From a virus, in IMG/VR virus record IMGVR_UViG_3300035670_001063, positions 1 through 27,254 of that record: a stretch of DNA of 27,254 nt; one strand, written 5' to 3'. Position 1 is the first letter of the stretch. Each line of letters starts with the position of its first letter. Under the pieces are notes generated by a model. That model saw only the letters and a program-made list of their open reading frames with translations, did not search any database and had not been told where the DNA came from. Positions 1,653-27,222 of this stretch are shown here, one piece after another. A program made the position numbers and the translations under genes.

Positions 1653-1681
1653 ATTGTAACACAAGAGCATAAAGTTGTCAA
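1653..1681 (-). promoter_or_regulatory. Sigma70-type promoter P2
   Basis: On the minus strand TTGACA (1676-1681) is followed by exactly 17 bases and TACAAT (1653-1658), with TG one base before the -10 (extended -10). It begins only a few bases after the terminator hairpin at 1689-1719. The predicted transcript start is near 1646, leaving a leader of about 75 bases before the ATG at 1571. It shares ACATTGACA and scattered spacer positions with the promoter at 18887-18915. Confidence 0.85.
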
Positions 1682-1683
1682 TG

Positions 1684-1719
1684 TAAAAAAATACCCGACC
1701 AGTTTATGGTCGGGTATTT
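1684..1719 (-). terminator. Rho-independent terminator T2
   Basis: A perfect 12-bp stem (1689-1700 with 1708-1719, AAATACCCGACC) with a 7-base loop, followed on the minus strand by a run of T. It lies 12 bases after the stop of the fibre chaperone gene and just before promoter P2. The plus-strand side also has a TTTGTTTTT run, so it may work in both directions. Confidence 0.9.
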
Positions 1720-1730
1720 GTTTTTAAATA

Positions 1731-2141
1731 TTATTCAGGTTTTTGAGGCCAGGTAATATTATCTGGATCTGTTTGAAGAGTAATATCTCGTAAAGCCTGT
1801 CTGTACTGCTTCCAAGCTTCTGGCACGTCAGTGCCAGATTCTTGCGCTTTAATTACCATCCAATCAGTTTCTGCTAATAATTTATCACGCTGTTCTCGTA
1901 TTTGTTGCCATTTTTGTTCTGGGGTTCTAATATCCTGCCAAGTTTCTAATTCATAATTAAAACTATGATAAATACTTGGCTGCATTCCTTTTTCTTTTAT
2001 TTCACCATTTTTAATGTACTGTGTACTTGGATTAGCTCGGCCCTCTATAACTAGAGGTCCTTGCAGTTCAAATTCATTTTCAAGACATGTTCCAGAATTT
2101 AGAATTTCGCCTTGTTGAGTATATGCTATAAATTGTTTCAT
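1731..2141 (-). CDS. Tail fibre assembly chaperone-like protein
   Basis: A 136-residue protein. The C-terminal third has the hallmark of the phage tail assembly chaperone family (PF16778 type): RDKLLAETDW at about 85-94, WKQYRQALRDI at 110-120 and a terminal WPQKP at 131-135. The N-terminal half (IAYTQQGEILNSG, then GPLVIEGRANPSTQYI) resembles the short beta segment that precedes this domain in fibre-chaperone genes. Members help the adjacent fibre fold or attach and often lie directly downstream of it, as here: the ATG overlaps the giant fibre stop (ATGA). It is the last gene before terminator T2, so it ends the tape-measure/tail-tip unit. Confidence 0.8.
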   Translation of the reverse strand: MKQFIAYTQQGEILNSGTCLENEFELQGPLVIEGRANPSTQYIKNGEIKEKGMQPSIYHSFNYELETWQDIRTPEQKWQQIREQRDKLLAETDWMVIKAQESGTDVPEAWKQYRQALRDITLQTDPDNITWPQKPE

Positions 2142-5100
2142 TTTTTAGATTCAAGTATAAAATAACTTAAAATAGGACTTTGTAATATAAATGCTTGATT
2201 ACTAGTTGCACCAAATTTATATGTAACTGGGACTCCTGGTGTTGCTGTATCATGTACAATATACCAGAAAACTTCCTGCCAAAAACTAGATTGAAAGTTT
2301 CCAGTAGTTATAATTTCGGTATCTGTTCCACCCTGAGATCTAATAAAAGATATTCTTGTAGAATTCCAAGAAGCTGGATTGCCTTCTCCTGGTTCAGCAA
2401 ATCTTGTAGCAACTACAGACGGATTACCTGTTATAAAAAATGGACTTAATGCTGACATTCCTATAGTAACTGTACCGCTACCGTTTATATCTGGTATAAA
2501 TGTTAATATATTGCGATAAGCCCAGTTCCCTCCGTAGATAAGCCCAGAAGAATATGCTGCACTAATTCCTCCTCGCGGAACACTTACTGCATTAGTTCCA
2601 ATCTTTAGTGTTTGTACTTGTAGATCACCAATTTTAGCAGTACTAATACTACCATCTTGAATTTTTGCAGTATTAACCGCTAAGTTACCTATTTTAGCAT
2701 TAGTAATTGCTGCATCTTTAATATAGGCACTATCAATAGCTGCTGATTGAATATATGTACCAATATTTGTAGGAGTAATTGGATTTGCAATACCAAGACT
2801 ATCATCAGAAGATTGCATATATGCATTAGCTTCTTCGCCCAGTTGTACTTGAAGCGCACACATATCAACAGCAACCCCAGGACCAAGTCCAGCAGCAGGA
2901 GCTACAAGAGATAGTATAAGATTTCTATTACTAAGTACAGTTGCTCCAACTTGAACTTTCCAAGAGTACCGTTGCCAACTAGCAGTTAATGCAGGATTTG
3001 CTAGCTCTGTGGTTTGGGTAAATCCTGTTTCTGAAATACTAAACTTTGCACCTGCTGCTCCACTAGTTCCTGTTTTTGCGTAAAAACTAATTGTATGCCA
3101 AGCAGTAGCACTAGTATACCTAGGACCATAAGTACTTCCAGATACTTGTACACCTATTCTTGCAGTTCCATATAATCCACTAACAGTATTAAAAAATCTT
3201 AATACATTTGTACCGTATAATCCTTCATTTTCTAATATAGAAGTTGGTGGTGCTGTATAATTGTTTGGGTTGTATATAGTCCATCCAATTGGTAATACAG
3301 TATTAGTAGCTACAGTCTCATATCGTTTAAATCCTGAGTTTATAGCCTTGTTAGTAAACTGAGATATTGCATCTATATATTTTAAATCTAATCCAGTTCC
3401 AGCTGCTAAAATTATATTTCCTGCGGCATCTTTAATAGATAATCCTCGGCTATCAATTTTTTCAGCTGTAACCTGTCCAGCCTGTATTTTTTCTGTAGTT
3501 ATACTATTTGCAGCTAGTTGAAATGCTCCAATAGTCCCGGTAACAATTAAATTACCATCAATTCTAGCAGTTACGTCAACCCAAGTACTTCCTGCCCAAA
3601 ATTTAGTAACTGAAAATCCAGTACTATACATGGTAAGGGTGTCACCTATGACCACAGAACCATAAGTAGTTACAAAGTAATTAGTTGCAACACTATCTGA
3701 CCAAACAGTTTGATCGCTTAAATATGCAGCAGTTGCTCCACGAACTCCAGGTACAACCACAAGACTAGATAAAACTTTAGTTACTGTAAATAATTTTTCA
3801 ACAACAATACCACGATATACTGCTCTAACTAATACAGCGGCCGAGGAGCCAGTTAAATTAGTTATTGAGTATTCTCCTGTTGTTGAATTTATTACAAAAG
3901 TAACATTTCCTTGTTGAACAGCATGTGAGTAAAAAACTTCGCCATTACCAGTAATATCCTCAGAACCTAGGTATACTCTAAATGTACCTTTTGCAGCATC
4001 ATATTGATTAGTACCACCTAGTTTGGCTTTTTTAGCAGTATATGTAACCCTTTCATTAAGATATTCTTGATTTTGAGCAGAATATTGTATTACTACTGTA
4101 CCTTCATCGGCATCTAATCTACTAATGGTTAGTATACCAGTAGTTGAATTTAAGGAGGCTTCGATATTAGTTTTACTTACTATACCAATATCTGTAAGAT
4201 TTAAAACTGTTCCTGTTTGACTTATTATTTTAACTTGAGAAGTTAACTGTGATACATCGGAAGTTCCTGATGTATCTAGTGGTAAAACCATGTCAAATTC
4301 ATTAGTTAATATAGGTCTAGGCGCTGTATCAAACTCACGTCCAGGTATAATACTAATTCTATCTTCTGCTAAAATAGGTCCGGTTGCACTGCCTTGTCTT
4401 ACTCGAACTATTATAGTTGCTTTTTTTATAGTTGTACCGTTTACAACAGCTGTAGGAAAATTATTAGTTGTAGTAGGATGTGACCAACTATAAATATTTG
4501 AAGTACTACTACTTTGTAGTGTAACACCATCAGCCCTATAAAATTCATAATAAGGAGTCTGTGTAGTATTTACAGCTGTTGCAGTAAATAAAGTACTTAA
4601 TGTTCCAGTTCTATTTCCAGCACTATTATATAGTGCACATAAATTAGTATTGTCTGATGATAATGTTACAGAAACAGGATTAGTTGGATATATATTACCT
4701 TGTGCATCTACTATTAAGCTAGCACTATCTTTTGTTAAACTACCTGTTACAATATTTTGACTTTCGTAGGTAACACCAACCTCTACGTCTTGACTAAGGC
4801 CATCCCAAGTAACTCGTAATTTAACAGGTAATACAGAAGTACTATCATAATTTAAAGTATAAGGATAACTACTACCTGTTAGGGTTATATTTCCAGAAAG
4901 TATTTGAGGGACGCTAGGACTTCCAGTTAAATTAGTGCCGGCTGCGCTTATAGTAATGCTGCTAGGATATTTAATTATTTCTGGTGGAGTAACTGCCCAA
5001 GTGTCTGCATTTGATTCTGCTACTAGTTGCCTAAATCGTAGATAAACTCCCGAACTTGTTTTAGCTCCTACAGGTAGTGTAGTAGTAATAGTATTCCACG

Positions 5101-8100
5101 CATTTTGTAAACTAGTTTGAGGGCTGTGGGTAGTTATAGTTGTCCAATTTGATAAATCAGTTGAATATTCTAGTACTAAATTATCTCCTGCGTCTGGTAG
5201 TTCACCCCAACTAGCTCCAGTTGAAGCATTTGCTCCACCTGTCATTACTTTATAAGTTATAACTGTATAATCTGCAAGATTTACTTTTCCAAGAGTTCTT
5301 ATATACCTATCTGCTTGTGTGCCGTATCTAAATATATAAATTTTACCAATTGTAGCAGCATTCTGCAGTTGAGGGTATGATAGTAGGGCATTAAAAACAG
5401 CCTCTACTCCTGTACCTTTATCGTATGAATATTCTGCAGTTATTGGGTAAAAAGTAGACCATTCTGGAAATAAGAAAAAAGGACTACTAGTAGATACAGA
5501 AAGTGCTTTTCCAGGTAATCCAGGATTACCCTGTGACCCAGTTTTACTCTTACTAAAAGTTTGTTCTTTAGTAATAAAGAAAGGTATATCATTGTATGTT
5601 CCACTAATGGTATAAGTAACTTTAGCTGTTGTACTTGCATCAGGAAAATTGCTATGATTACCTATTATAGCCTGTGTAGCTGTTGGTCCGCTTCCACTAG
5701 CTGTGCCAGCTGTAATTCCAGTGCCGCTAGCCGTAACTTTCCAAGTTCCGTTTGTGGTACCTACTCCATCATATATTAATTCAGTTGCACCGGCTAATAC
5801 TTTAATAATTACACCACTATTAGCATAATCAATTACTTGATTATCAGTATTAGCAGTAAAGGAATGCGTATCTTTTGATATAAGCGCTGTAATCGAATCC
5901 CTGCCCGGTTCTGATTTAATTATAGTTTGAGTTTTGGTACTAGTAAATGATTGATTATTTATTACACCTTCAATATTAAACTTAATAGTTGCAGTAAGGC
6001 CTGCTCCTGTTTGAAAATTACTTGGTGCCCCTATTACTGCAAAATTTCCATTTGTTCCTTGGCTCCAAGTTCCAACAGTAATATTCTCATCTTCAACAGA
6101 ACTAATTTTCCAAGTATTATTTGCCGTACCAACTCCATCATACGTTATTAGTCCTGTGCCACTATAAACTCTTATTTCTGTAGCCGCTCCGGAATAATCT
6201 GTTACTTCTCCGCTGCTGTCTGTTGGTAGTACATGAGTATTATTACTTAATTCTACACTAATACCACTTAATCCTGGCATAATAGAATTTAACGATTCAT
6301 AATCTACAGCATATATTACAGATTGTCCTTGTACTACTTTAAATATTTGTACAGCTATTTGTATTTGATTATTTTCTATAAATGTTGCAGGCGAATTATA
6401 ACTTATTATATTACTATCAGTTGCTTGTAATAATGTCTGTGTTCCGTCTGGAGTTATTTGAACAAAATAGTAAATTAATTCAGGATCGCTTACTACTATT
6501 CCATTTTCTGTTAAATAAGCTACTATATATTGTGAAGCAGGGGAAGGAGTTGTTCCTGTAGCACTATATTGAATAGTTTTTTGTTGAAAAATAAGGTAAG
6601 CAGCATAGCTAGGTAAGGCTGCTTGTCCTCCTGCTCCTTCTTCACCTTTTAGTGATTTACTAAATTTTTGAGTTTTGTTTATAGTAAACGGTATGCTATC
6701 GGCTTTACCTGTTATAGTATAAGTAATACTAGCTGTTGTTTGATTATCAGGAAAATTTGAATGGTCTGCTACTATAGCAGTAGTAGATGTAGAGCCTGCT
6801 CCACTTATAGCTCCTGGTGTAATATTTATAGCATTACTTGCAGGATTTATTTCTACTTTCCAACGACCTTCTTGAGTACCTATACCATCATAAATAAGTT
6901 CAGTAACTCCTGAATATACTTTGATCTGTGTACCGCTACCAACGTAACTAAGTACATTACCAATATCTCCAGCAGTAAATGGATGTGAATCATTAGATAA
7001 AATAACATTAACTGCATTTTTTCCTATAATGCCATCTTTACCTGGTTTAATTGCGGTTAATGCTAAAGTATCAATAGCTATAGGATTATTTAAATCAACT
7101 GCAAGGTATACTATTACTGCCAAAGTTTGTGGAAAATCGTTAAAATTTGCCGGTGGAATATACGTGTATTGATTATATTGAGTATTTCCATCAGGGCTTC
7201 CTTGTTGAACTATACTTGTATTACTATTTTTATCTATTAAAGCAAATATGTAATAATAATTTTGTAATTCTGATATACCAGTAATAGCATTAGCACCACT
7301 TACTAAAGTTGCTTCAACAATGGTTGATGTTGGTGTAGGGCTAACACCATCTGTATTATAAGCAAAATAGTTTTGTTGTGGCAGTAATTTACAATTATAC
7401 GCACTTATACCATTTTCAAGAGTGTTAAACGTTTGAGTTTTACTAATTTCAAAAGTATTATTATTATATTTACCAGTTATTTTATATGTAATATATGCCG
7501 TATTAAATTGTGATGACATTGCATAGTGATCTTCTACTTCTGCAAAAGAACCATTGTCAATAACATTACCAGAAATAATATTAATAGCTTGATCGATTAC
7601 TAACTTCCAGCTATTATTAGAAATATTGGAAGCTCCATAGCCTTCATATTGAAGTTCTGTAACTCCTGCAAATACTCTAATTTCTGTTCCACTACCAGTA
7701 TAATTAATTTCTCCATAAACATTTTTAGCAAAACTGTGCGTTTCATTAGATAAAATAACACTTATAGAACTTATTCCATCTTCTCCAGTAGCTCCAGCTT
7801 TACTTTTACTAAATGTTTGTGCTTTAGTAATTACAAAAGGAGTTTGATTTAGTGTACCTTGTATTAAATATGTAATATTAGCCGTATTTGCACTAGTAAA
7901 ACTATTATGATCTCCAATAGTTACATAATAGCCATTATCTGTAAAACTGGTTGATGGCGTAATATTTAAACTAGATAGCACGGTTACTTTCCATGTGCCT
8001 TCTGCAGTACCTGTACCATCATATTGTAATTCTGTTGCACCTGCAAATACTTTTACATCTGTACCACTTCCAACATAGCTAGAAACTTGCCCATTACTAT

Positions 8101-9556
8101 CACAAGTAAATGAGTGAGTTTCATTAGAAAGTAATACATTAATAGCATCTTTTCCATCTTCGCCGTTTGTGCCTGCCTTACTTTTACTAAATGTTTGAGA
8201 TTTAGTAGTAGAAAAACTTATGCCATTCGCTTTTCCGGTAATTGTATATGTAATATTAGCAGTATTTGCTTGTGTTAAAAAGTTAGTATGGTCTGATATA
8301 GTAACAGTAGTAGTACCGTATTGTATATTATTAGTAATAATATCAATATTGTTACCACTAGTATTGGCTAATTTCCAGCCATTGTCTAGAGTTCCAGTAC
8401 TATCATATGACAGTTCAGTACTACCACTAAATACTCGTATAATTGTTCCGCTGCCAGTATAGTCATTAACTTGTCCAGCTTGTGTAGCTGTAAATGAGTG
8501 TGTTTCATTTGACAATAACACTGTAATGGCATCTTTTCCGTCTATACCAGGATTGCCGTCGGTTCCATCTTCTCCAGCATTACTCTTACTAAAGGTTTGT
8601 GTTTTATCTATATTAAAAATGGTACCATTTACATTACCAGTTATACTATAAACAATACTAGCCGTAGTTAAGCTATCAGGAAAGTTACTATGGTCTCCAA
8701 TAATTGCAGTATTACCACTACTACTAATTGATCCTTTAGTAATATTAACTTCTTGACTAGCTACAACTTTCCAAGTATTAGCCTGAACACCTACACCATC
8801 ATAGGTTAATTCAGTGACACCACTAAAAACTTTAATAGTTGTACCACTGCCTGTATAGCTATCTACTACACCTAGATAACTTGCTGAAAAATTATGGGTT
8901 TCATTAGATAGTATTACTGTTATGGCATCTTTACCAATTATTCCATCTTTTCCAGGTTTTAAACCAAATATTGTAATAGTATCTTCTGCTAAAACTGTAC
9001 TGCTACTACTTCCCTCTCTTATTCGTACAGTTATTTGTGTAGGTATAGTTGTATAAGTATTAGGAGGTGTATAGGAATAGGTTGTTGTAGTAGTATTTTG
9101 TACAGATTGATTATCTACAATAAATTCATAAAATACTGATCCTGTAGTATTTTTTGCTGTTGCAGTAATATTTGTTTGAATGGGATTGGGATTCAAACCA
9201 TTTTCATCATAAGCAATTGCTTGACTGCTAGCTGCTAAACTAACTGTAACAACACCACCCAAGGGAGTTCCAGTTAAAGTTTCTGAATCGTTAAACTGGG
9301 TCTCGTCTAAAGAAGAAATAAGAGCATATTTTACATAGTATGCTATTCCAGGAGTTAGATTTGGAATAAACACATTTAGACCATCTCCTGAATAAGCTAA
9401 CGTTCCTTGGGTTTCTACATTAAAATTTTCAGTTGTAGTACTATACCAAACCTTAATACCGGACAAGTCGTCTCTGACTTGTCCGGTATTTGTATCTATA
9501 GGAGGATCAACTACAAGTTGTAATCCTTTAACTGCTGGAAATAATTGTGCTGACAT
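2138..9556 (-). CDS. Giant repeat-built tail tip / receptor-binding fibre protein
   Basis: A 2472-residue protein, the largest gene in the window. Layout by residue: fibronectin-III-like domain (about 8-98); an Ig-like 'B' domain (102-198); four copies of a ~115-residue 'A' domain (211-325, 343-460, 471-586, 598-712); B2 (719-836); A5 (848-968); B3 (980-1094); A6 (1098-1214) and A7 (1221-1338); a jelly-roll-like segment (about 1355-1525); B4 (about 1628-1738); further beta domains; then a GTIGAFQLAANSITTEKI segment (2007-2024) like the C-terminal region of lambda-J-type proteins. After a carbohydrate-binding-module-like segment (about 2070-2245), xxAKIGxL-type repeats (2284-2320) and a terminal tip domain follow. 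Short collagen-like Gly-x-x linkers (such as GEDGTDGNPGIDGKD) separate the A domains. Its place after the K-I-J fusion and before a fibre chaperone indicates the distal tail fibre that contacts the host. Confidence 0.85.
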   Translation of the reverse strand: MSAQLFPAVKGLQLVVDPPIDTNTGQVRDDLSGIKVWYSTTTENFNVETQGTLAYSGDGLNVFIPNLTPGIAYYVKYALISSLDETQFNDSETLTGTPLGGVVTVSLAASSQAIAYDENGLNPNPIQTNITATAKNTTGSVFYEFIVDNQSVQNTTTTTYSYTPPNTYTTIPTQITVRIREGSSSSTVLAEDTITIFGLKPGKDGIIGKDAITVILSNETHNFSASYLGVVDSYTGSGTTIKVFSGVTELTYDGVGVQANTWKVVASQEVNITKGSISSSGNTAIIGDHSNFPDSLTTASIVYSITGNVNGTIFNIDKTQTFSKSNAGEDGTDGNPGIDGKDAITVLLSNETHSFTATQAGQVNDYTGSGTIIRVFSGSTELSYDSTGTLDNGWKLANTSGNNIDIITNNIQYGTTTVTISDHTNFLTQANTANITYTITGKANGISFSTTKSQTFSKSKAGTNGEDGKDAINVLLSNETHSFTCDSNGQVSSYVGSGTDVKVFAGATELQYDGTGTAEGTWKVTVLSSLNITPSTSFTDNGYYVTIGDHNSFTSANTANITYLIQGTLNQTPFVITKAQTFSKSKAGATGEDGISSISVILSNETHSFAKNVYGEINYTGSGTEIRVFAGVTELQYEGYGASNISNNSWKLVIDQAINIISGNVIDNGSFAEVEDHYAMSSQFNTAYITYKITGKYNNNTFEISKTQTFNTLENGISAYNCKLLPQQNYFAYNTDGVSPTPTSTIVEATLVSGANAITGISELQNYYYIFALIDKNSNTSIVQQGSPDGNTQYNQYTYIPPANFNDFPQTLAVIVYLAVDLNNPIAIDTLALTAIKPGKDGIIGKNAVNVILSNDSHPFTAGDIGNVLSYVGSGTQIKVYSGVTELIYDGIGTQEGRWKVEINPASNAINITPGAISGAGSTSTTAIVADHSNFPDNQTTASITYTITGKADSIPFTINKTQKFSKSLKGEEGAGGQAALPSYAAYLIFQQKTIQYSATGTTPSPASQYIVAYLTENGIVVSDPELIYYFVQITPDGTQTLLQATDSNIISYNSPATFIENNQIQIAVQIFKVVQGQSVIYAVDYESLNSIMPGLSGISVELSNNTHVLPTDSSGEVTDYSGAATEIRVYSGTGLITYDGVGTANNTWKISSVEDENITVGTWSQGTNGNFAVIGAPSNFQTGAGLTATIKFNIEGVINNQSFTSTKTQTIIKSEPGRDSITALISKDTHSFTANTDNQVIDYANSGVIIKVLAGATELIYDGVGTTNGTWKVTASGTGITAGTASGSGPTATQAIIGNHSNFPDASTTAKVTYTISGTYNDIPFFITKEQTFSKSKTGSQGNPGLPGKALSVSTSSPFFLFPEWSTFYPITAEYSYDKGTGVEAVFNALLSYPQLQNAATIGKIYIFRYGTQADRYIRTLGKVNLADYTVITYKVMTGGANASTGASWGELPDAGDNLVLEYSTDLSNWTTITTHSPQTSLQNAWNTITTTLPVGAKTSSGVYLRFRQLVAESNADTWAVTPPEIIKYPSSITISAAGTNLTGSPSVPQILSGNITLTGSSYPYTLNYDSTSVLPVKLRVTWDGLSQDVEVGVTYESQNIVTGSLTKDSASLIVDAQGNIYPTNPVSVTLSSDNTNLCALYNSAGNRTGTLSTLFTATAVNTTQTPYYEFYRADGVTLQSSSTSNIYSWSHPTTTNNFPTAVVNGTTIKKATIIVRVRQGSATGPILAEDRISIIPGREFDTAPRPILTNEFDMVLPLDTSGTSDVSQLTSQVKIISQTGTVLNLTDIGIVSKTNIEASLNSTTGILTISRLDADEGTVVIQYSAQNQEYLNERVTYTAKKAKLGGTNQYDAAKGTFRVYLGSEDITGNGEVFYSHAVQQGNVTFVINSTTGEYSITNLTGSSAAVLVRAVYRGIVVEKLFTVTKVLSSLVVVPGVRGATAAYLSDQTVWSDSVATNYFVTTYGSVVIGDTLTMYSTGFSVTKFWAGSTWVDVTARIDGNLIVTGTIGAFQLAANSITTEKIQAGQVTAEKIDSRGLSIKDAAGNIILAAGTGLDLKYIDAISQFTNKAINSGFKRYETVATNTVLPIGWTIYNPNNYTAPPTSILENEGLYGTNVLRFFNTVSGLYGTARIGVQVSGSTYGPRYTSATAWHTISFYAKTGTSGAAGAKFSISETGFTQTTELANPALTASWQRYSWKVQVGATVLSNRNLILSLVAPAAGLGPGVAVDMCALQVQLGEEANAYMQSSDDSLGIANPITPTNIGTYIQSAAIDSAYIKDAAITNAKIGNLAVNTAKIQDGSISTAKIGDLQVQTLKIGTNAVSVPRGGISAAYSSGLIYGGNWAYRNILTFIPDINGSGTVTIGMSALSPFFITGNPSVVATRFAEPGEGNPASWNSTRISFIRSQGGTDTEIITTGNFQSSFWQEVFWYIVHDTATPGVPVTYKFGATSNQAFILQSPILSYFILESKK
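5543..8926 (-). repeat. Seven-copy protein domain repeat (A1-A7) inside the giant fibre gene
   Basis: Each copy runs LSNETHSF-like start, YTGSGT-IKVFSG-TEL-YDG-GT, a W-K pair, an INITxG-like strand, a DHSNF-like turn, ITYTITG, and an end KTQTFSKS. Copies lie at residues 211-325, 343-460, 471-586, 598-712, 848-968, 1098-1214 and 1221-1338. They are clearly related at protein level but diverged, with A6 the most divergent (LSNNTHVL start, IIKS end). B-type Ig-like domains interrupt the array after A4 and A5. This looks like old tandem duplication followed by divergence. Confidence 0.85.
9455..9490. repeat. 15-bp perfect inverted repeat inside the giant fibre gene
   Basis: AATACCGGACAAGTC (9455-9469) and its exact reverse complement (9476-9490) flank a 6-base loop. 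It covers codons 23-34 of the giant gene, about 66 bases after its ATG. It would form a very stable hairpin in the mRNA, but no T run follows on the minus strand, so it is not a standard terminator. Confidence 0.85.
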
Positions 9557-9564
9557 TTAATTAC

Positions 9565-12500
9565 CTATGGTGAAATTGTGTATAAAATTATTTCATTAGA
9601 TACACTATTTATACTTTCATTGCCTGCTGCATCTACTAATCTGCACTCTACTCTATATTTAGTACCTGCTTCACTTATTCTTGGTGAAGGAAATTCTAGT
9701 AGATTAAAATCTACATATGCTGCAGCTGTTGTTTGTGTTTTTATTAGTATGGGATTTTGTAGCGACCAAAAATCTTGGGTACCAGAATCTTTAAATAACT
9801 TTATTCTAAAGTATTTAAAATTATCTGGAATAGTTGTAAGTACTGGAGTTACTCTTATAAATTTGCTAATTCTTTGTATATTTAGTGAATTGGCCGACTC
9901 TCTATTTGTTGTAATGCCTTCGACTGTATGAGTAGTCCAATCTGTCCATTTACTAGCTCTATTATCTTCTGTAATATATCGCAGTCTATATCTATATATT
10001 TCACCAGCTATTACATCTGGAATTGTTATAGTATTAGTTACAAATTCAGAATAAATACTTTTTGTACCTATATTATCTAAATTTGTATTCAATATATACT
10101 CACACTGTATATGTTTTATATTTACTGGAATACTATCTACAGTTGCATACGATATTTTTATATTATATCTATAGTTACCCGGTGAAAGTATATCAATAGC
10201 TCTATCATCACTATAAACGGCTGTAACTACAGGAGCTTGGTCTATATTAAAACTATTTATATAGCCTTGTGGTGGAAGTGTTATTTGACTTTCAAATACT
10301 AATTGTTCAGTTAGCGACTTATAGTCTTCGAATATGTTTGTAAGATCGCTTACACCATAGTCCATTAGTGTAATTTTTGCAGTTTTATTGGCTCCGGGTT
10401 CTATACTTAATACTATTAAATCTTGACTTTCTTTTTCTAGCTCTCCTATCATAAATAGATCGCCAGCATCAATCAAATTTGTATTACTTGCAGATATTGT
10501 TTCTGATAGTAATACATATTTATACTCAGATAGTCCTAGTCTAATATATCCTTGAGAATTTATTGTGCCGTCCGCGCCGGAAGTTTGCACAGTATAACTA
10601 ATAGTTTTTGCTTGTCTATTAATAGTCATTAATTTATTTTGAACATTAATAGATGTATTATCACAAACTATAGTTATAGGATTTGTATCTTCAAAAGGTA
10701 CTGTTCCATATAAACTAGATAGTTGTATTGTTATAGTATTACCTGATCTGGTAAAACTACTAAAAGGTATTTGTGTAACTAATTGGCTTGTAGTACTTTG
10801 TCCAGTTTTTGATCGTACTCTAATAGTATATTGTGTAGGATATTGTAGTTGTACAATATCATCTAATTCTAGTACGCTTATATTTTGTAGTGTATTGGCA
10901 TAGATATTCTTTATTCTGCCACTACCTAAACCCCAAGCAGGAACATCATGTGTTACTTTTACACGATCTCCACGATTACAGGCTAAATATTCAATATCGG
11001 CATTTAAACTATATACTTCTCGTCTAACTTTTGCTTGAGCAAAATGCCACTTTCCATGATCTATAACTGCTCCTACATTAGTTACACCAGGTAGACTTAT
11101 AGATTCAAAAAGTTCTGCATTAGTAACATTTTTTCCAGTATTATAAACTATAACTTCAGATTCTTGATAATTTTGTTCTTCGTCATAGAAATTAATACGT
11201 AGAGCATCTGGTTCTTTTGGTAGTGCTCGCACACCTTCAAATCCCCAGCTATTGTGTGGACTAAAGTGCTGAACTATAGCTGATTTTGGTTCGTCTATAG
11301 TTACGGTCCATTTACCATCAATCATTGTAGGACTAGCTCGTCCAGCTGCACATATATCTCGTAATACTTCTAGTATACTACGTGTATTAGCAACTATACC
11401 ATTATACTCATATTTATAGGTTTTTGTTTTAAGAGTGTTACTTTGGTCATAATACTGTATAGTTCTACCGGTTTCGCAATAATTATACCAATACTCTAAT
11501 TGTGTAAGATTTATTTTGTCACTAATTTCACTATCTAGTATTCGCTGTGGATTTGCTGGATGTGTTAGTACATGAAAAAATAACGCTGCAGGATTACTAG
11601 TTACTAGGCTATAATCAGTAAATACACTGCTTATAGGTCTGCACCTACTTTGTACTATGGCATTAATACCCTCTAACTGGCCACTTAGTTGTCCTTCAGC
11701 CTGTATAACATATACACTTTTTGCAACAGTACAATTTTTAGGATCAGTAATAGGGTTTTTATTATTAGTATATGTAACCGTTAATAGTACTACACTATGA
11801 GCATATCTCCAATCAGGATTATCATCTACATTATCGCCAGTTATCCTACGAGCTCGTACTTGAGTAAGTGCTGCGGTTTCAAAAGTTTTTGTTCTGGTTA
11901 TAGTGTATGCGTCTTTTTTATTTCCTGTAATTGTGACTATTTCCCAAGGTGTCCAGTCAGTATCGCCGTATCTTTTATATTGAGTTTCTATAAGTACAGT
12001 TGCATCTTCTCCAGTACCTGCTCCATCCCCCCTAGACTTAATTCGTCTCATGCCTTCTGGCATATGAAATGCTAGCGTAACTTCTAATGCTTGATCGTTT
12101 GAAGAATCACTAGTCCATACAGGTCTTGCTGCCACTGGAATTTCGGTTTCCGGATTGCCTTCGCATATTAGTGTAACTCTAAGATTAGATTGTTCTACAT
12201 CTCGGGCATACAGTGATTGAAACTTTTGAATATTTGTAGGAGCATCATTATAGCCCGTTAGAGTAACACTATCTTGGATTTCATAATCGTCTATATTAAC
12301 TTCACCAATTTTTAAATCGGTAATTTGTAGTGGCCCAAAACCCCACGCCAGTGCAGTAGTTAAATAACTTATTCGTTCCTCTGGATAGGTAACATAATTT
12401 TGAGCTGCTAACGGTGGTGTTATTCTGGTTTTTCCCAAAATTACAGGTATTGCTTCATATTGATTAGCCCTATTACCTGTGCCCTCAACCATTAGTTGTG

Positions 12501-13341
12501 ATTCGCTGGTACCTGGATCCTGTTGTTGTGGCATACTAACAGGAAAAATTGCATTCATAAGTAACATACCAGCTGTACTTACTGCAGCAGTTGCAAAGCC
12601 GGCTGCTGCTCCTTGCAGGGTTGCACCTGCTGTACCAGCAGCAATAAACTGTCCACTACCAAAAGCAAATTCTGCAACGTATGGGGCATATATAGCAATA
12701 ACTATAAATGCGGCCATTCTAAGAGCATCATTACCCTTGGCTAACTCTCTATAAGTTATAACATCATTAGCCTGTAGCTTAATTTCATTCCAATAAAATT
12801 CAGGAATTGCTGTATTATTTAACAGTAGTACAAAATTATCTGATTTTATTGGTAAGGAGTCTGCTACATCGCGTAATGTAGTTTTTCCATCAATAGCTAC
12901 AGTTAATACTTTAGTTTCTAGGGGCGGAGGTAATTCTTGTAATCTTTTACTTTTAGTTTCTGAATAACTATAGAAGCCTTGTACGCGATTTGCCCAACTA
13001 GTTCCACGAATACTACCTATAGCTACATCATAGCCTTCACGAGAATGTATAAACTCATGTTCATTAAGCATTACACCTACATGAGTATCTCTGCCTAATA
13101 TTCTAAATAGTACAATATCGCCTTCTTTGGCTTGTTGTACTTGCTCCCAGCCTTCTTTATATTGAGCAATTAGTTCTTTAATACGAACACTATCTTCTAC
13201 CACATATTCACTAGCAAAACTAGGTAAATCTATACCATATTGTTCACTATAAATCAGACGGACTAATCCCCAACAATCTGTTCCAGTATAGTCTCTACCT
13301 CTATCCTTGAAAGGGATTCCAATATATTTATTTGACCACAT
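9565..13341 (-). CDS. Fused tail-tip protein: NlpC/P60 peptidase (K) + I-like + J-like hub
   Basis: A 1258-residue protein joining what lambda makes as three proteins. Residues 1-125 are an NlpC/P60 cysteine peptidase like gpK: DCWGLV (Cys23), DTHVGVM (His87) and IHSREG (His99) supply the expected catalytic set, and GDIVLF is typical. Residues about 143-200 form a gpI-like beta-grasp segment (KVLTVAIDGKTTLRDV), followed by an Ala/Gly-rich hydrophobic stretch (206-267). From about 290 (AIPVILGKTRITPPLAAQ) the sequence has the layout of J-type tip proteins (ALAWGFGPLQITDLKIGEVNI), continuing through hub domains and ending in fibronectin-III-like modules. In the virion it would form the tail-tip hub, and the peptidase would cut cell-wall peptide links during entry or tail assembly. 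The ATG directly follows the upstream TAA. Confidence 0.88.
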   Translation of the reverse strand: MWSNKYIGIPFKDRGRDYTGTDCWGLVRLIYSEQYGIDLPSFASEYVVEDSVRIKELIAQYKEGWEQVQQAKEGDIVLFRILGRDTHVGVMLNEHEFIHSREGYDVAIGSIRGTSWANRVQGFYSYSETKSKRLQELPPPLETKVLTVAIDGKTTLRDVADSLPIKSDNFVLLLNNTAIPEFYWNEIKLQANDVITYRELAKGNDALRMAAFIVIAIYAPYVAEFAFGSGQFIAAGTAGATLQGAAAGFATAAVSTAGMLLMNAIFPVSMPQQQDPGTSESQLMVEGTGNRANQYEAIPVILGKTRITPPLAAQNYVTYPEERISYLTTALAWGFGPLQITDLKIGEVNIDDYEIQDSVTLTGYNDAPTNIQKFQSLYARDVEQSNLRVTLICEGNPETEIPVAARPVWTSDSSNDQALEVTLAFHMPEGMRRIKSRGDGAGTGEDATVLIETQYKRYGDTDWTPWEIVTITGNKKDAYTITRTKTFETAALTQVRARRITGDNVDDNPDWRYAHSVVLLTVTYTNNKNPITDPKNCTVAKSVYVIQAEGQLSGQLEGINAIVQSRCRPISSVFTDYSLVTSNPAALFFHVLTHPANPQRILDSEISDKINLTQLEYWYNYCETGRTIQYYDQSNTLKTKTYKYEYNGIVANTRSILEVLRDICAAGRASPTMIDGKWTVTIDEPKSAIVQHFSPHNSWGFEGVRALPKEPDALRINFYDEEQNYQESEVIVYNTGKNVTNAELFESISLPGVTNVGAVIDHGKWHFAQAKVRREVYSLNADIEYLACNRGDRVKVTHDVPAWGLGSGRIKNIYANTLQNISVLELDDIVQLQYPTQYTIRVRSKTGQSTTSQLVTQIPFSSFTRSGNTITIQLSSLYGTVPFEDTNPITIVCDNTSINVQNKLMTINRQAKTISYTVQTSGADGTINSQGYIRLGLSEYKYVLLSETISASNTNLIDAGDLFMIGELEKESQDLIVLSIEPGANKTAKITLMDYGVSDLTNIFEDYKSLTEQLVFESQITLPPQGYINSFNIDQAPVVTAVYSDDRAIDILSPGNYRYNIKISYATVDSIPVNIKHIQCEYILNTNLDNIGTKSIYSEFVTNTITIPDVIAGEIYRYRLRYITEDNRASKWTDWTTHTVEGITTNRESANSLNIQRISKFIRVTPVLTTIPDNFKYFRIKLFKDSGTQDFWSLQNPILIKTQTTAAAYVDFNLLEFPSPRISEAGTKYRVECRLVDAAGNESINSVSNEIILYTISP

Positions 13342-14228: not shown

Positions 14229-17200
14229 TTATCTCCTAATTAATTGTGGTTTTAACCCAAAAGTACTTCTCATAGTACGTTGAGATTGGCTGCCACTTCT
14301 AGCCATATCTGAAGCTGCTGCTTCTCCAATCATTATTTCTACTTTTCTATTGCCACGACTGTCTGTGCTCTCTACAGCCTCTGCCTGTACACCGCTGTAG
14401 TTATTAATAACTACTTCAGTTTTTTGACCTCCGCCACGAACACCAAGATTACCTTGATTATCGCGCTTTAGTGGCATTATGGCCTCTGGCCCTGCTTCGC
14501 CCATTAAGCCTGTACCTTTTGCAAATTTAAATAGGGTAGGTTGATTAACTATTGAATTAGTAAACATTCCACCTTTAGCAAATGCAGTTATCGCACTATC
14601 ATAAAAAGAGCCTAATGCACTTGGTCTCGGCGGGCCTACAAATCCAGGACTGCCTTCAGCAGCTACGCTACTAGGAGTTAGACCCGGCAACATACTCATT
14701 AAACTAGGCCTAATTGCACTTTGATATATCATTGAAGTTTGCATTCTAAGCTCAAACTTTAGTAGATCATTTAGCAATGATTTAAATAGATCTTTACCGG
14801 CCCACTTACCTGTTTCAGCCCATTTAGTTATAGCGTCTGCAAGTCCGTCAAATGTACTTTTAAATATTCTGTCGTAACCTTTTTGACGTTCACTTAAACT
14901 TTCATTTAACTGTTTATTTCTAAGTTTGGCATCATATAACAAAGCTTCACTTTGTAAAACTTGAGCGTAGTATTGTTGACTCTGTAGCTGTAGTCCTCGT
15001 AGCCTATCTCGTTCAGCAACATCACCTTGTCCTAGAGCAGCTATTCTTGCCTTATAATTTTCATCTTCATCTTGACTTTGTTTTTTAATACTGGCTATTT
15101 TATTATTATATTCTATTTCTAGCTGTAAACTTTCTAAAGCTCTTGATTTAGTAATATACTCTTGTTCTGTTATATTACCTAAACTGTTATTAATTTCTAA
15201 TCTATCTCGTTCTGCCTGTATTAACCCCGATTCTGTACTGCGACTTAGCTCACGAAATCTATATGCCATTTCGGCAACTTCTTTTTGTTTTTCTAATTCA
15301 GTTGTTACTCTATCTATAGCATTAGCTCTATTAGCTTCAGAAGTAGTTGCATCGTTAGTAGCTTTAGTATTTGCTTCTTTTGCAACTTTTTCTGTAGTTA
15401 AACTACTGATACTATTTCTAGCAGCTTCAGCTACTTTTGTATATCCTCTTTCTCTAGCAGCTTTTTCAACAGCCTCTAATACACCTAACTCTTTTGTTAG
15501 TTGCATTGTTTGTATAATTGCTTCTTGATCACGCTCTTGTGACTCTCTAGCAATACGCTGCTGTCGTTGTTCTACGGGGCTAGCTTGTAAAAATTCTACA
15601 TTTTTACTAAAGAATTCAGCATTTCTTGTTTTTAGGTCTAATAGAGTATTTTGTTCGCGTTTAACTCTGGCTTCTAGTTCTGCTTCAGTTTGACCAATTT
15701 GACCTCTTATTATAGCCATTTGTCGCTGAGTATCTAAATCTATATTTTGTGCTCTTATGCCTGCCGTTCTTTGCATAATTTGTGAAGCAGCTGGAAGTAT
15801 AACTTGTCCAGAGGTTCTTAGTGCTTCTGGATTTGTATATGCTAACTGTTGTTGCTGTACTTCAGATATGGCTCTTCTATTAGCTTCTAAATCTATATCA
15901 GGTCTTTTTTGTTCTTCTTTTAATCTATTTAATTCTAATTCTAGTCTAAGTTGATCATTTGAATTAATTAAATTTATAGTTGTATTTAATTCATCTTTTC
16001 TTAACTGTATGGACTGTAGCTCTAGATCAGTAGCAAGTTTTACAGTTTCTGCGGTCTTTGGTAAATATCCCAGTAACGCTTGCTGTGTTTGAATAACTGC
16101 TTTACGACTAGCTATATCAACAGTTTTATTTATTAAATCTAAAGCTGCATTAATAGCTACAACAAGTGCATCACGTACACCTTGCCCAAGGCTTTCAAGT
16201 TTACCTTGTGTTTCTGCTAATATAGCACCTTTTTCAGCACTAAGTGTTTTTAATTCTGCTAGTCTAGATGTATCGGGGACTCCTGCTTTTCTTTTTGCAG
16301 CCCCTCCTGGTAGCATACTTGCTGCTGAAGGCATTGCTCCTTCTATATCTGCTATTTCTTTGTCGTAACCCTTTTTAAGCTCTGTAGCAACTCTTATTAT
16401 ATCATTATACTGGTTTAATACTTTTATTTCATCATAGATTAATTTTTGACTTTCTGGCGGAAACATACTTATTTTACTAGTATCAGCTGCTAAGTCATTT
16501 AATAGTGCTAATCTATTTTGAGTATTATCTAAAGCCTCATTCATATTATAGGCTTGTTTTGCTAAGTCTTGTGCAAATATAGATATTGGGCTTTTATCTA
16601 GTAAACTATTCGCTAGATTTTGATAACTAGTAGATAGTGCTCTAAATCCATCTTGCACTGCTTTTAATGGTTTTGCAGCATCTTGTGCTTCTTTAGATAT
16701 TGTTTTAAATAATCTTTTTATTTTCTCTGCAACATCAAGTACGGCATCTTTATCACCCATACCTGTTATAGCTTCTACTATAGTTCTTATAGATAGTTTA
16801 TCTTGAATATTTAAAAGATTAGCAATACCTTCTTCAGCTTGTTGTCGTAGTTCAGGGCTGTCTATGTTTCTAATTGAGGCTATAATAGCTGGGCCCATAG
16901 CGTCGCCAAAACGATCTTGCAGACCCATACCTATCATTTGCAAAAATCCATCCATAAATCTATTCCAACCACTTGCCGCCTCATCCGCAAGATTAAGTCG
17001 ATCTACGGTTTCTCCTATACTACCAGCTAGTCCATCTAAAGCATTTGCTTTTGCCTGTATACTTTGTAGGCTTAGGGTATTGTTATATTTATCTGCAGTT
17101 CTATTTGCTGTTTCAGTTTTTTGGTTTAACTCTTCTAAACTATCATTAAATCTTTGTACTTCTTTATCATTCTTGCTAAATACAGCAGCTAGTAGTTCAT

Positions 17201-18836
17201 AAGCACCAAATATTACACCTACAATACCTAAAGCTCTATTAAGTATTGTAAACAATTTTCCTACACTTCCTGCTGCAATAGCGGCACTACCACCAATAGC
17301 AGAAAGTATGCCAGGAATCATACGAAGTTTTTCGTCTTTGATACCTTGCATTAAATTAGAAAAAGCCTGTCTACCCCCTGCTTCTCCTACATCTCCATAA
17401 GCTCTACTAATTAGAGTGCTGGTGGCATAGCGCTGACGAGCTTGTTCTGCTTTTTCTGCAGCAATACCTGCTGTAGAAAGTAATTTTGCTCTTTGATTTA
17501 TTTTATTGTTAGTTTCAGTTTCTAAATCAATGATATCTTGATTAGTCTTTTTAACGTCTTTAATACTTTGTGCAAGATCACCGTATAGCTTTGTGCGTTT
17601 ACCAAGCCTCTCTAGATGTGCTACTTCTTTGTCAGTAATATCTTGTATATCTTTTACAAGAATATCTCTAACGCCCTGTTGTAATCGTTTTTTATCAAAA
17701 GCGGTTTCAAATTGCTTTTCTAATCTATCTAGTGCTTTATACTGTCTATCTTCTAGATTTTGAAATTCGGTTTCTCTTTCTGCTTTAATAGCCTTAATTC
17801 TTGCTATACGTGCTGTTTCTGCTGATTTTGCTTGAGTTTCATAAAAACTTTTACTACGCGCAGCAGCGGCATCTAAACTAGCCCCCCAGCTTTTTAACAC
17901 CGGTATTGCTTGACGCACAATACTGGCTGTAAAAGCGGCTAGGCCTAAGAATAGTGCAGTAGGGCTTGCGCTTAGTAAATTAACTAGTGGAGTAATTACA
18001 GTATTTATAATACTTAGTACTTGTGTACCTAAATTTTTTAGACTGGCAGCTAATTTATCATAGGGATTAGTAGGTATTTCAATAGCACCAAATTTTGTTA
18101 TACCCTCGGATAGTATAGCATTAGCAAACGCTTGTACTTTTTCAAAATCAGTTAGTGCCTCAGAACTTTTACCTACTTTTCTAGCGTAGTCGTCAAAAGC
18201 TTTTCCTGTTTTAGTAATAAGTCCTAATTCATCAAGCAATTCAGGTTCTAGCTTTGTAATACCACGAGTAAGACGGCTTACTGCATCACTCATGTTAAGG
18301 CCAAGTGCTTGAGAAGCTTTACGTGCAACTTCTTCTAGTTGCATTATTTGTTTTTCACCTAATCCGCCACTAGTAGCCTTAACTACAGATTCCATAGACT
18401 CGCGAAGCGTAACGGCTCCGCCACTAGCATCAGAAAATCGTTTAGCCATATTGCCTAAACTAACGCCTTGGGCTGCACCTAGTTGATTTAAACCTTCAAC
18501 CATGTTAGCAGTATTCATGGCTTCACGAAGCGCATTAAACGCAGCAGTTACAGCAAATATATTTGCTGCCCATGTAGCGTATAGGCGAACTAATCCACCC
18601 AAGCCTTGTGCTTGGTTTGCAAAATCACGAGCACTTGCTCCAGTTGCTCCCATAGAGCCTCGGCCGCGTCCATACTCAATATTTTCACTAGCCGCCATTG
18701 CTTTACTAGCAGCTTTTGAATGTGCAACTGTTTTTTCTAGTTCTTTATTTAATCTGCTAGCGTCAGCAGTTCTATCTTTAATACTATTTCCAGTATCTCT
18801 GACGTTTAGATTAATATTTACTGTATTACCTGCCAT
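14229..18836 (-). CDS. Tail tape-measure protein
   Basis: A 1535-residue protein. The tape-measure core lies near 100-260 (LNQLGAAQGVSLGNMAKRF, then LGLNMSDAVSRLTRGITKLEPELLDELGL). Two hydrophobic stretches follow (about 272-315 and 506-554), then long charged helices and coiled coil to about 1400, and a Gly/Ala-rich tail ending in GLMGEAGPEAIMPL and FGLKPQLIRR, the typical end of lambda-type tape measures. The protein sets tail length, sits in the tube lumen and exits during DNA injection; the hydrophobic stretches could form the membrane channel. At the usual scale of about 0.15 nm per residue the tail would be roughly 200-230 nm (inference). It is the first gene after promoter P1. The ribosome site CGGAG could pair with an upstream CCTCC in the leader. 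Confidence 0.93.
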   Translation of the reverse strand: MAGNTVNINLNVRDTGNSIKDRTADASRLNKELEKTVAHSKAASKAMAASENIEYGRGRGSMGATGASARDFANQAQGLGGLVRLYATWAANIFAVTAAFNALREAMNTANMVEGLNQLGAAQGVSLGNMAKRFSDASGGAVTLRESMESVVKATSGGLGEKQIMQLEEVARKASQALGLNMSDAVSRLTRGITKLEPELLDELGLITKTGKAFDDYARKVGKSSEALTDFEKVQAFANAILSEGITKFGAIEIPTNPYDKLAASLKNLGTQVLSIINTVITPLVNLLSASPTALFLGLAAFTASIVRQAIPVLKSWGASLDAAAARSKSFYETQAKSAETARIARIKAIKAERETEFQNLEDRQYKALDRLEKQFETAFDKKRLQQGVRDILVKDIQDITDKEVAHLERLGKRTKLYGDLAQSIKDVKKTNQDIIDLETETNNKINQRAKLLSTAGIAAEKAEQARQRYATSTLISRAYGDVGEAGGRQAFSNLMQGIKDEKLRMIPGILSAIGGSAAIAAGSVGKLFTILNRALGIVGVIFGAYELLAAVFSKNDKEVQRFNDSLEELNQKTETANRTADKYNNTLSLQSIQAKANALDGLAGSIGETVDRLNLADEAASGWNRFMDGFLQMIGMGLQDRFGDAMGPAIIASIRNIDSPELRQQAEEGIANLLNIQDKLSIRTIVEAITGMGDKDAVLDVAEKIKRLFKTISKEAQDAAKPLKAVQDGFRALSTSYQNLANSLLDKSPISIFAQDLAKQAYNMNEALDNTQNRLALLNDLAADTSKISMFPPESQKLIYDEIKVLNQYNDIIRVATELKKGYDKEIADIEGAMPSAASMLPGGAAKRKAGVPDTSRLAELKTLSAEKGAILAETQGKLESLGQGVRDALVVAINAALDLINKTVDIASRKAVIQTQQALLGYLPKTAETVKLATDLELQSIQLRKDELNTTINLINSNDQLRLELELNRLKEEQKRPDIDLEANRRAISEVQQQQLAYTNPEALRTSGQVILPAASQIMQRTAGIRAQNIDLDTQRQMAIIRGQIGQTEAELEARVKREQNTLLDLKTRNAEFFSKNVEFLQASPVEQRQQRIARESQERDQEAIIQTMQLTKELGVLEAVEKAARERGYTKVAEAARNSISSLTTEKVAKEANTKATNDATTSEANRANAIDRVTTELEKQKEVAEMAYRFRELSRSTESGLIQAERDRLEINNSLGNITEQEYITKSRALESLQLEIEYNNKIASIKKQSQDEDENYKARIAALGQGDVAERDRLRGLQLQSQQYYAQVLQSEALLYDAKLRNKQLNESLSERQKGYDRIFKSTFDGLADAITKWAETGKWAGKDLFKSLLNDLLKFELRMQTSMIYQSAIRPSLMSMLPGLTPSSVAAEGSPGFVGPPRPSALGSFYDSAITAFAKGGMFTNSIVNQPTLFKFAKGTGLMGEAGPEAIMPLKRDNQGNLGVRGGGQKTEVVINNYSGVQAEAVESTDSRGNRKVEIMIGEAAASDMARSGSQSQRTMRSTFGLKPQLIRR

Positions 18837-18931: not shown

Positions 18932-18969
18932 CAAAAACCCGCAGGTAATTACTACGCTGCGGGTTTTTG
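18932..18969 (-). terminator. Rho-independent terminator T1
   Basis: A perfect 13-bp stem (18932-18944 with 18957-18969, CAAAAACCCGCAG) with a 12-base loop. The gpGT stop codon at 18952-18954 lies in the loop. On the minus strand the 3' arm is CTGCGGGTTTTTG, so the T run is partly inside the stem and the plus-strand side mirrors it. It closes the head/tail-tube unit just before promoter P1. Confidence 0.85.
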
Positions 18970-19724
18970 TTGTTGTCGATTATTAATATTTTTAGCTCTT
19001 ATACCATCTATAAGTCTAATAATATTTAGTGTAAATAGTCTATCTTGTTTGTCTATACTATACAGGTCAAAAATATCCTGAATTCCTGCAAGATCTTTGC
19101 CCAAGTACAGGCCGTTAAACCCTTCCCAGCGATCTTGTAGTATAGCATAAATACTAAAGCATTCCTGAACTTCTGCAGAAAAATCATCAAATTCTACAGG
19201 TATATTTTCTGGTACAGGCTCCTCACCAGTTAGCTCGCACATCTCAAAATACTGGTCACTAGTAACGCCTAGTTCAGCATTTTGCATATAGTTATCAATA
19301 GCTAATTTAAGTGCTAGGAGCTGCTCTTCGAAAAATTTGCAAGGTCACCAACCTGTTCACTAACAAATGCATCAAAGTTGGTAGAATTTTTCATTAGGTA
19401 AAGAGCATTTTCTGCTGTATACTCTAACATATCTTCAAGATTATAACCACTAAGATCTACAGGGGCAAGTTCTTGTAGGTATTTAAGTTTTAAGCCTTGC
19501 CAACCTTTAACTGCATTTTCTACATATAGTTGCAAGAAAAGTTCTTCATTAAACTCCTCTTGTGGCTGACGATTCTTAAATGTAGTCTTAGTAGACTTTT
19601 TACGAATATTTAAAAGCGTGTCGCGGGATAGGAAAGCAAGTTGAACTAAGAATCCGGGCATACCAGGAAATTCTACTTCAATATTCTTACTGGGAACTAG
19701 TAGGGATTTAAGGGAAAGAGTCAT
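18952..19724 (-). CDS. Tail assembly chaperone gpGT (-1 frameshift product)
   Basis: Frame 0 (gpG) slips back one base at AAATTTT (19332-19338), and the new frame then reads FEEQLLALKLAIDNY into the downstream 111-codon frame that ends at 18952. The product would be 257 residues (131 from gpG plus 126), joined as 19724..19332 then 19332..18952. The T-like extension (DQYFEMCELTGEEPVPEN, then ILQDRWEGFNGLYLGKDL and LFTLNIIRLIDGIRAKN) has no good ribosome site at its own first Met (19287), so frameshifting is the likely route. In lambda, gpG and gpGT bind tape-measure and tube subunits and are absent from the virion; the same position, just before the tape measure, is seen here. Confidence 0.88.
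19314..19724 (-). CDS. Tail assembly chaperone gpG
   Basis: A 136-residue protein, the unshifted product. Ribosome site AAAGGT upstream of the ATG. The N-terminus (LKSLLVPSKNIEVEFPGMPGF) and the helical body (LFLQLYVENAVKGWQGLKLKYL, then LEDMLEYTAENALYLM) fit the tail chaperone group that lies between tail tube and tape-measure genes. It ends with LANFSKSSS just after the slippery heptamer. Its likely work is to keep the tape measure soluble and recruit tube protein during tail assembly. Confidence 0.85.
   Translation of the reverse strand: MTLSLKSLLVPSKNIEVEFPGMPGFLVQLAFLSRDTLLNIRKKSTKTTFKNRQPQEEFNEELFLQLYVENAVKGWQGLKLKYLQELAPVDLSGYNLEDMLEYTAENALYLMKNSTNFDAFVSEQVGDLANFSKSSS
19332..19338 (-). 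promoter_or_regulatory. Programmed -1 ribosomal frameshift site
   Basis: On the minus strand the heptamer A AAT TTT fits X XXY YYZ in the correct gpG frame (codons AAT 130 and TTT 131). After the slip the A-site and P-site tRNAs can re-pair on AAA TTT. The zero frame stops five codons later (TCG AAG AGC AGC TCC TAG), and the -1 frame is open for 126 codons. A short GAGC/GCTC stem just downstream is too small to count as a clear stimulator. Confidence 0.9.
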
Positions 19725-26786: not shown

Positions 26787-27222
26787 GGCTATCTCCACTG
26801 GTAAACTCACTAAACGGAGATCCCCAACTAGGCTGCTTTAGCACCTCACCATTCTGTTTCTGACGCTGCAGTTCTAACCAATGCTGCTGCTTACTAGCAG
26901 TACCCAGACCTGGCGCTTTGCCAAATATCTGGTGTAGCCTAACGTGGTGTGGATTACATAGTGTATACACTAGTTCATACAGCTCACGGCGGTGCTCACT
27001 AATGAACTGGTCCCGTACCGCCAACACACTCTCATCCGTATCTAGCTCAATGCCCAGTTGTTGGCACCAGCGTTCAAGGAGTAAGGTAATACTGTGGGTA
27101 TGGTGTAGTTCAAGGTCTTGGTTAGTTCCACAAACCCAGCACTTAGATTGCTTCTGGTAAGCACCCTTTGCACGGTCTCGGATCCATTTTACAGGTATAC
27201 GTTTTTGAGTATTTTTTGCCAT
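26764..27222 (-). CDS. HNH endonuclease
   Basis: 152 residues from the ATG at 27222. The frame could extend to a GTG at 27249, but a -10-like TATAAT lies in between and favours the ATG. HNH signs: zinc-type CWVC (Cys28, Cys31), LELHHTHS (His40/His41), CNPHHVRLH (Cys89, His92, His93, His97). The core matches the small HNH nucleases that phages carry beside the terminase and portal, where the nuclease is needed for terminase cutting during packaging. The terminase genes would be expected just outside the right edge. A free-standing homing endonuclease is the alternative. Confidence 0.85.
   Translation of the reverse strand: MAKNTQKRIPVKWIRDRAKGAYQKQSKCWVCGTNQDLELHHTHSITLLLERWCQQLGIELDTDESVLAVRDQFISEHRRELYELVYTLCNPHHVRLHQIFGKAPGLGTASKQQHWLELQRQKQNGEVLKQPSWGSPFSEFTSGDSRGNKRIF

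Follow-up and report, generated by a model that had tools for sequence, protein, structure and literature searches.

Composite blocks in which a terminator is joined to a promoter are found at the edges of exchanged genes in T4-type phages, where these promoter-early stem-loops (PeSLs) are proposed, in the account given in PMC4503421 (citing Arbiol 2010; Comeau 2014), to provide short homology for module shuffling. Adhesins are exchanged in the distal tail fibres gp37/gp38 of T-even phages, as summarised in PMC3797505 (citing Tetart 1998, Trojet 2011), and lambdoid phages have linker sequences at module joints (as cited in PMC4546147). In phage T5, PG25 is a late promoter by primer extension, and the host sigma-70 polymerase serves all gene classes (PMC7472727). 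In the T5 genome (AY543070), PG25 comes directly after a terminator at 92113-92087, and three further terminator-promoter junctions are present.

The locus examined here, a terminator (T2) running into a promoter (P2) in a T5-like phage, shares features with each of these systems. PeSL cassettes are the closest known thing to it: like a PeSL as portrayed in that account, T2/P2 is an intergenic composite of terminator and promoter at the edge of exchanged genes. However, the PeSLs described there are dense, repeated in shuffled regions and built on early promoters, whereas T2/P2 is one fixed copy in a structural/lysis cluster with the same block always behind it. T2/P2 may function in the manner of a PeSL confined to a single fixed position, yet we do not class it as one, as PeSLs occur in many copies per genome and only two boundaries, one of the T2/P2 type, were found here. 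As with gp37/gp38, host-range determinants are shuffled among otherwise similar phages, but the T-even exchange is described in the cited summary within and between fibre genes, while the 3′ limit of the present exchange is formed by an intergenic terminator-promoter. The lambdoid linkers, as cited, likewise are conserved joints bordering exchanged modules; the T2/P2 joint differs in being itself a working-looking terminator and promoter, and in a T5-like phage. The T5 PG25 junction, which lies in the tail gene cluster, also joins a terminator directly to a strong, A/T-rich sigma-70 promoter, but PG25 follows the tape-measure gene pb2 and stands neither before the tape measure nor after an adhesin, whereas P2 borders an exchanged module at a different boundary. 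The hexamers differ as well (TTGATA/TATAAT in PG25, TTGACA/TACAAT in P2).

The window, i.e. the whole stretch of DNA analysed, is the complete IMG/VR record IMGVR_UViG_3300035670_001063 (27,254 bases) and consists of a T5-like late gene cluster with all main genes on the minus strand. These encode the portal (25608-26810), the protease/major head protein (23677-25596), the major tail protein (19784-20944), tail chaperones (18952-19724), the tape measure (14229-18836), a central fibre J-like protein (9565-13341), a putative long tail fibre of 2472 aa without family match (2138-9556), the 3′ part of which lies in the exchanged module, and a PF16778 tail-fibre assembly chaperone (1731-2141), the last gene of that module, whose stop codon precedes the T2 stem by 11 nt. 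Compared with the T5 map, the head and tail genes of the cluster are homologous and follow the T5 order. Searches with the portal and the major tail protein led to Demerecviridae (Vibrio phages VCPH and Thalassa, Aeromonas phage AhSzq-1 and Klebsiella phages) at 33%-41% identity, indicating that the window derives from a distant T5-like phage, which is probably strictly lytic. DNA comparison with cultured phages gave nothing beyond very short weak Vibrio matches. The gene cut at the window start (1-467) resembles tail fibre genes of the Methylophilales phages Melnitz, and positions 197-467 resemble part of Limnohabitans phage DC31 (68%-72% DNA identity), a likeness that gives a hint of a betaproteobacterial freshwater host. 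A strong 13-15-bp hairpin (TACCGGACAAGTC...GACTTGTCCGGTA, 9457-9488), which lacks a good T run when read on the minus strand, falls within the opening codons of the 2472-aa fibre gene, where J and fibre genes meet, and a similar hairpin is present in the relative G005 (54056-54087).

On the minus strand, T2 (1719-1689) reads AAATACCCGACCA-TAAAC-TGGTCGGGTATTT and forms a 13-bp stem, six pairs of which are G-C, with a 5-nt loop (MFE -20.1 kcal/mol, z -7.0 against dinucleotide shuffles). With its T run (1691-1685) directly after a G+C-rich stem it has the make-up of an intrinsic terminator; on the plus strand it is likewise a hairpin with a T-rich tail. The -35 hexamer TTGACA of P2 (1681-1676) starts 7 nt past the stem and is followed by an extended -10 element (1661-1653), composed of TG (1661-1660) and TACAAT (1658-1653). 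P2 is thus TTGACA-N17-TACAAT, with 11/12 consensus matches, a spacer ending in TGT and the TG one base ahead of the -10, which agrees with an extended -10 sigma-70 promoter (TTGACA, 16-18 nt, TATAAT, TG). The terminator/promoter junction placed at 1653-1719 by the preliminary description is therefore borne out, as T2 (1719-1689) leads into P2 (1681-1653) on the minus strand. The window has two promoters with at least 11/12 matches, TG and N17, compared to a mean of 0.03 and a maximum of 1 in 60 dinucleotide shuffles of it, and no terminator-promoter junction was found in any of these shuffles; T2/P2 is more than chance.

Transcription from P2 is predicted to start near 1646, as judged from the -10, giving a leader at 1646-1572 (minus strand) in which no strong fold was found (z 0.26). 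A leader hairpin or riboswitch was considered and rejected, since folding is no better than chance. About +50 to +70 from the -35, the leader of most relatives contains a second conserved block, TTTTTTCTTGACAAgcTTTTAAC (e.g. L022, 9545-9565), which pairs as an inverted repeat with GTTTGTCAA in some relatives and by the usual consensus is no second promoter.

Relatives were retrieved by similarity to the 199-aa protein encoded behind P2, yielding 29 viral contigs, and all 29 carry T2/P2 at the same place, with a terminator running into TTGACA-N17-TG-TA[T/C]AAT. Across 21 distinct segments from these protein-found contigs, TTGACA, TG, six T's and the -10 except for its third base (T/C) are invariant, while much of the spacer sequence is variable. 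The T2 stem shows compensatory changes (G-C/T-A/A-T, G-C/A-T/C-G, and C-G/T-A) in these 21 segments, for which the anchor failed in one case (L027). This count was used in place of a looser one on 91 loci, in which a crude anchor gave mismatched registers. Information content across 91 unique loci peaks at -30 to +30 and is at background level upstream of -50. When stretches found in IMG/VR with the pattern TTTTTTnCATTGACA-N17-TAnAAT were added to the protein-found ones, 128 of the 147 stretches examined among the matches listed had a terminator and a TG promoter. The comparison indicates that conservation extends to both terminator and promoter, and that the two go with the block downstream of them.

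A second junction, T1/P1, lies 17.2 kb from T2/P2 in the window, also on the minus strand. T1 (18969-18932), an intrinsic terminator, overlaps with the last part of the tail assembly chaperone gene (18952-19287), and P1 (18915-18887) is a TTGACA-N17-TATAAT promoter with TG (12/12) before the tape-measure gene. A counterpart is found at the same gene boundary in 7/7 long relatives (44-99.7 kb), in L003-L006, and in the window, and P1 is conserved like P2, always before the tape-measure gene. A conserved stop-and-restart boundary is supported at both places. Immediately before the start codon of the tape-measure gene, the P1 leader (18886-18836, minus strand) holds CTCCAGCGGATTCCCGGAG, which could mask the ribosome-binding site by base pairing.

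The two junctions had been described as being of the same design and as sharing ACATTGACA. The first statement applies to the promoter, as P1 is a 12/12 match with TG, but not to the close spacing, as T1 is long-looped and lies about 16 nt ahead of P1. The shared bases are present in the window, but P1 of the relatives has GGG, GGT, GTA, CTA or GTG before TTGACA. The build differs too: an A/T tract resembling an UP element separates T1 from the P1 -35 (18931-18916 in the window; AAAAATTTTTT as an example in relatives), while P2 has no such tract and its -35 is nearly abutted by the T run. The T run of T2 would here occupy the place of the UP element, an economical overlap. P1 and P2 spacers are identical at 9/17 positions in the window and at 6-11/17 within genomes, compared to a mean of 7.8/17 between different genomes; they are no more alike within than between genomes, and their resemblance is therefore no sign of common origin. 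On the spacer comparison and the variable bases before TTGACA, we rejected the reading that P1 and P2 are copies of each other.

The preliminary description also supposed that the module might be repeated at other boundaries and proposed a genome scan for a stem, T run and promoter. Run on four relatives of 89-99.7 kb (G001, G003, G004, and G005), with 28-36 predicted terminators per genome, such a scan recovered junctions at the P1 and P2 boundaries, P1 before the tape-measure gene and P2 after the adhesin gene, and none recurring elsewhere; the supposed repetition was not found, with only these two recurrent junctions. The T1 of G003 was read by eye because the automatic scan missed its long loop, and in G004 a weak additional junction was seen at 69 kb. 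A regulatory cassette that is mobile or dispersed and has been copied to several boundaries, comparable to T4 PeSLs, would account for two junctions of the same design per genome and for the self-contained terminator-promoter composite. We regard this as very improbable, as the junctions keep to two fixed places, T2/P2-type junctions never occur more than once per stretch among the matches listed, and P1 and P2 have no special likeness within genomes and are spaced and flanked differently. The genomes share a design common to both junctions but no dispersed module.

Two other promoter-like patterns were seen in the relatives. The sequence TTGACA-N17-TACAAT, seen repeatedly within genes of G001, G003, and G007, was rejected as a promoter because it sits in an apparently conserved coding motif, TLTKRINGGTIGIEDR, of what we take to be a GH19-type endolysin gene. 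Separately, a near-identical family of promoters with 18-nt spacers (TTGACACGsGCCAAAATTATATGnTATAAT) is found in G005 (27420-32096, locus L064), with up to five copies within 5 kb, and in G001 (8993), G003 (79031) and G009 (65). In appearance they are a set of early promoters whose common spacer motif is possibly a regulator site.

The position of T2/P2 became apparent from pairwise alignments around P2, in which DNA similarity begins at the base of the T2 stem. Among close pairs (at least 80% identity downstream, n = 107), similarity is lost within 20 bp of the stem base in 83 and within 100 bp in 9 more, and it is continuous in 15. For instance, L007 and L009 have 99.4% identity over the stem and the DNA downstream of it, and no common upstream DNA. 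By C-terminal comparison, the genes ending before T2 fall into about 14 unrelated types (single-linkage clusters), with the stop codon in frame and 0-47 nt ahead of the stem. The types with recognisable domains are the PF16778 tail-fibre assembly chaperone (the window, L009, and others), a PB4-spike fibre, an F5/8-type-C/CBM adhesin and an S74 fibre; the remaining types had no family match. On a tree of about 1.1 kb of downstream DNA (71 rows, long branches), at least 26 type changes were counted, compared to a floor of 13 if each type had arisen once. On its upstream side, the exchanged part ends within the long fibre gene, at a distance of kilobases; when the window is aligned with G001, similarity stops about 7.3 kb (window) and 4.0 kb (G001) before P2. 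P1 served as a control: over 28 genome pairs, DNA similarity covers 74% of the 2.45 kb upstream of P1 vs. 4% at P2. These comparisons indicate that P2, but not P1, borders an exchanged adhesin module on its downstream side, and that the seam coincides with the 3′ edge of a module repeatedly replaced by unrelated ones. Crossovers may occur at any point of the shared downstream DNA, the position of the edge then reflecting which sequences have to be retained.

Alternatively, T2/P2 could be plain operon punctuation, a terminator that happens to adjoin the next promoter, with the loss of similarity marking the end of a fast-evolving gene and without a role in exchange or insulation. We consider this a serious contender, at a little under even odds, because T5 has several such junctions, some in regions without adhesins, and P1 shows the same design without an exchange edge. 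Yet the upstream genes are not just diverged but unrelated between near-identical backbones, and the edge falls at the stem base instead of further into the intergenic DNA. Moreover, the window and L022 are similar at -38 to +41 and then again only from +453, so that a block of 80 bp persists as a conservation island even where the leader and the first gene have lost DNA similarity.

The relatives in the exchange analysis are all metagenomic contigs, and assemblers break at variable adhesin regions, so that chimeric or broken contigs from mixed populations could mimic exchange at a conserved seam. Such an artefact is very unlikely to explain the pattern, given that L007, L008, L010, and L011 are identical from four records and that the upstream genes always end in frame just before the stem. 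The same combination of backbone and adhesin also recurs in separate assemblies (L017/L018/L019/L032, L021/L028, and L023/L024/L035), which argues against chimeras.

Behind P2, the window encodes three proteins on the minus strand. The first (117 aa, 1571-1218) has an apparent N-terminal hydrophobic stretch followed by a coiled coil and a weak match to the ‘hol-like chemotaxis’ family phrog_2658, the second (635-1234) is the 199-aa query used for finding relatives (phrog_1084), and the third has 78 aa (402-638, phrog_13853). L015 lacks the 117-aa gene and has P2 directly before the 199-aa gene; the gene was likewise not found in L087, L088, L127, L151, and L159, where the arrangement seems to be the same, the adjacency having been read directly for L015 only among these six contigs. 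In L030, L031, L033, and L034, the 199-aa gene is about 300 bp longer owing to an insertion mid-gene. The P2 unit extends over about 21 kb in G001 (34665-56197) and G004 (23113-44107), ending in both at a two-way terminator that faces opposite-strand genes, and in relatives it includes the gene presumed to encode the GH19-type endolysin.

With a probability of about 0.78, we read T2/P2 as the boundary of two late units at the 3′ edge of the exchanged adhesin module, a boundary that would insulate the downstream unit. As a canonical intrinsic terminator, T2 would end the P1 unit, which comprises the tape measure, tail tip and tail fibre/adhesin genes. P2, being near-consensus with an extended -10, could be read by the host sigma-70 polymerase unaided and would start the second unit. 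P2 is probably a late promoter, as its class is suggested by gene content. T2 would halt transcription arriving from foreign adhesin genes and P2 would restart it at a fixed rate, so that the downstream genes would keep their own promoter whichever adhesin stands upstream, and adhesin swaps would be tolerated because this stop and restart insulate the unit behind. The conserved block of ~80 bp and the homologous genes behind it could in addition provide a landing edge for homologous recombination. That the seam is a dedicated docking and insulation joint, with selection keeping the fixed ~80-bp element so that adhesin cassettes are exchanged without disturbing the lysis/structural unit, is a tentative extension that we hold to be somewhat doubtful.

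No sigma-factor domain was found in eight relatives, consistent with the use of host sigma-70; in the search for a single-subunit phage RNA polymerase, the control itself gave no match. A homologue of gpT5.026, the RNA-polymerase-binding late switch, gave no tblastn match in 8 relatives, all of them contigs (three of 97-100 kb, the others partial) in which the protein may have diverged, leaving the regulatory parallel to T5 incomplete. The junction could also act as an attenuator or anti-termination switch, in which T2 is leaky, P2 is minor, and read-through into the lysis genes is regulated at T2; with the putative endolysin gene behind T2, timing would matter. This, too, seems very improbable, as P2 comes close to the consensus in every relative, neither an alternative fold nor a conserved anti-terminator was seen around T2, and the transcribed leader, as described above, lacks a fold beyond chance.

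The components of T2/P2 are ordinary, with terminator and promoter conventional in design; what was unexpected is their position at an exchange edge. How lytic phages trade host-recognition genes without breaking expression behind them is a practical question. The T5-like lineage that carries the seam is widespread, largely uncultivated and of freshwater type, and the seam offers a fixed, searchable mark, as the pattern TTTTTTnCATTGACA-N17-TAnAAT has the adhesin module directly before it and allows the module to be excised from any contig of this lineage. The comparison also extends the stop-and-restart junctions seen in T5 to a large uncultivated T5-like group.
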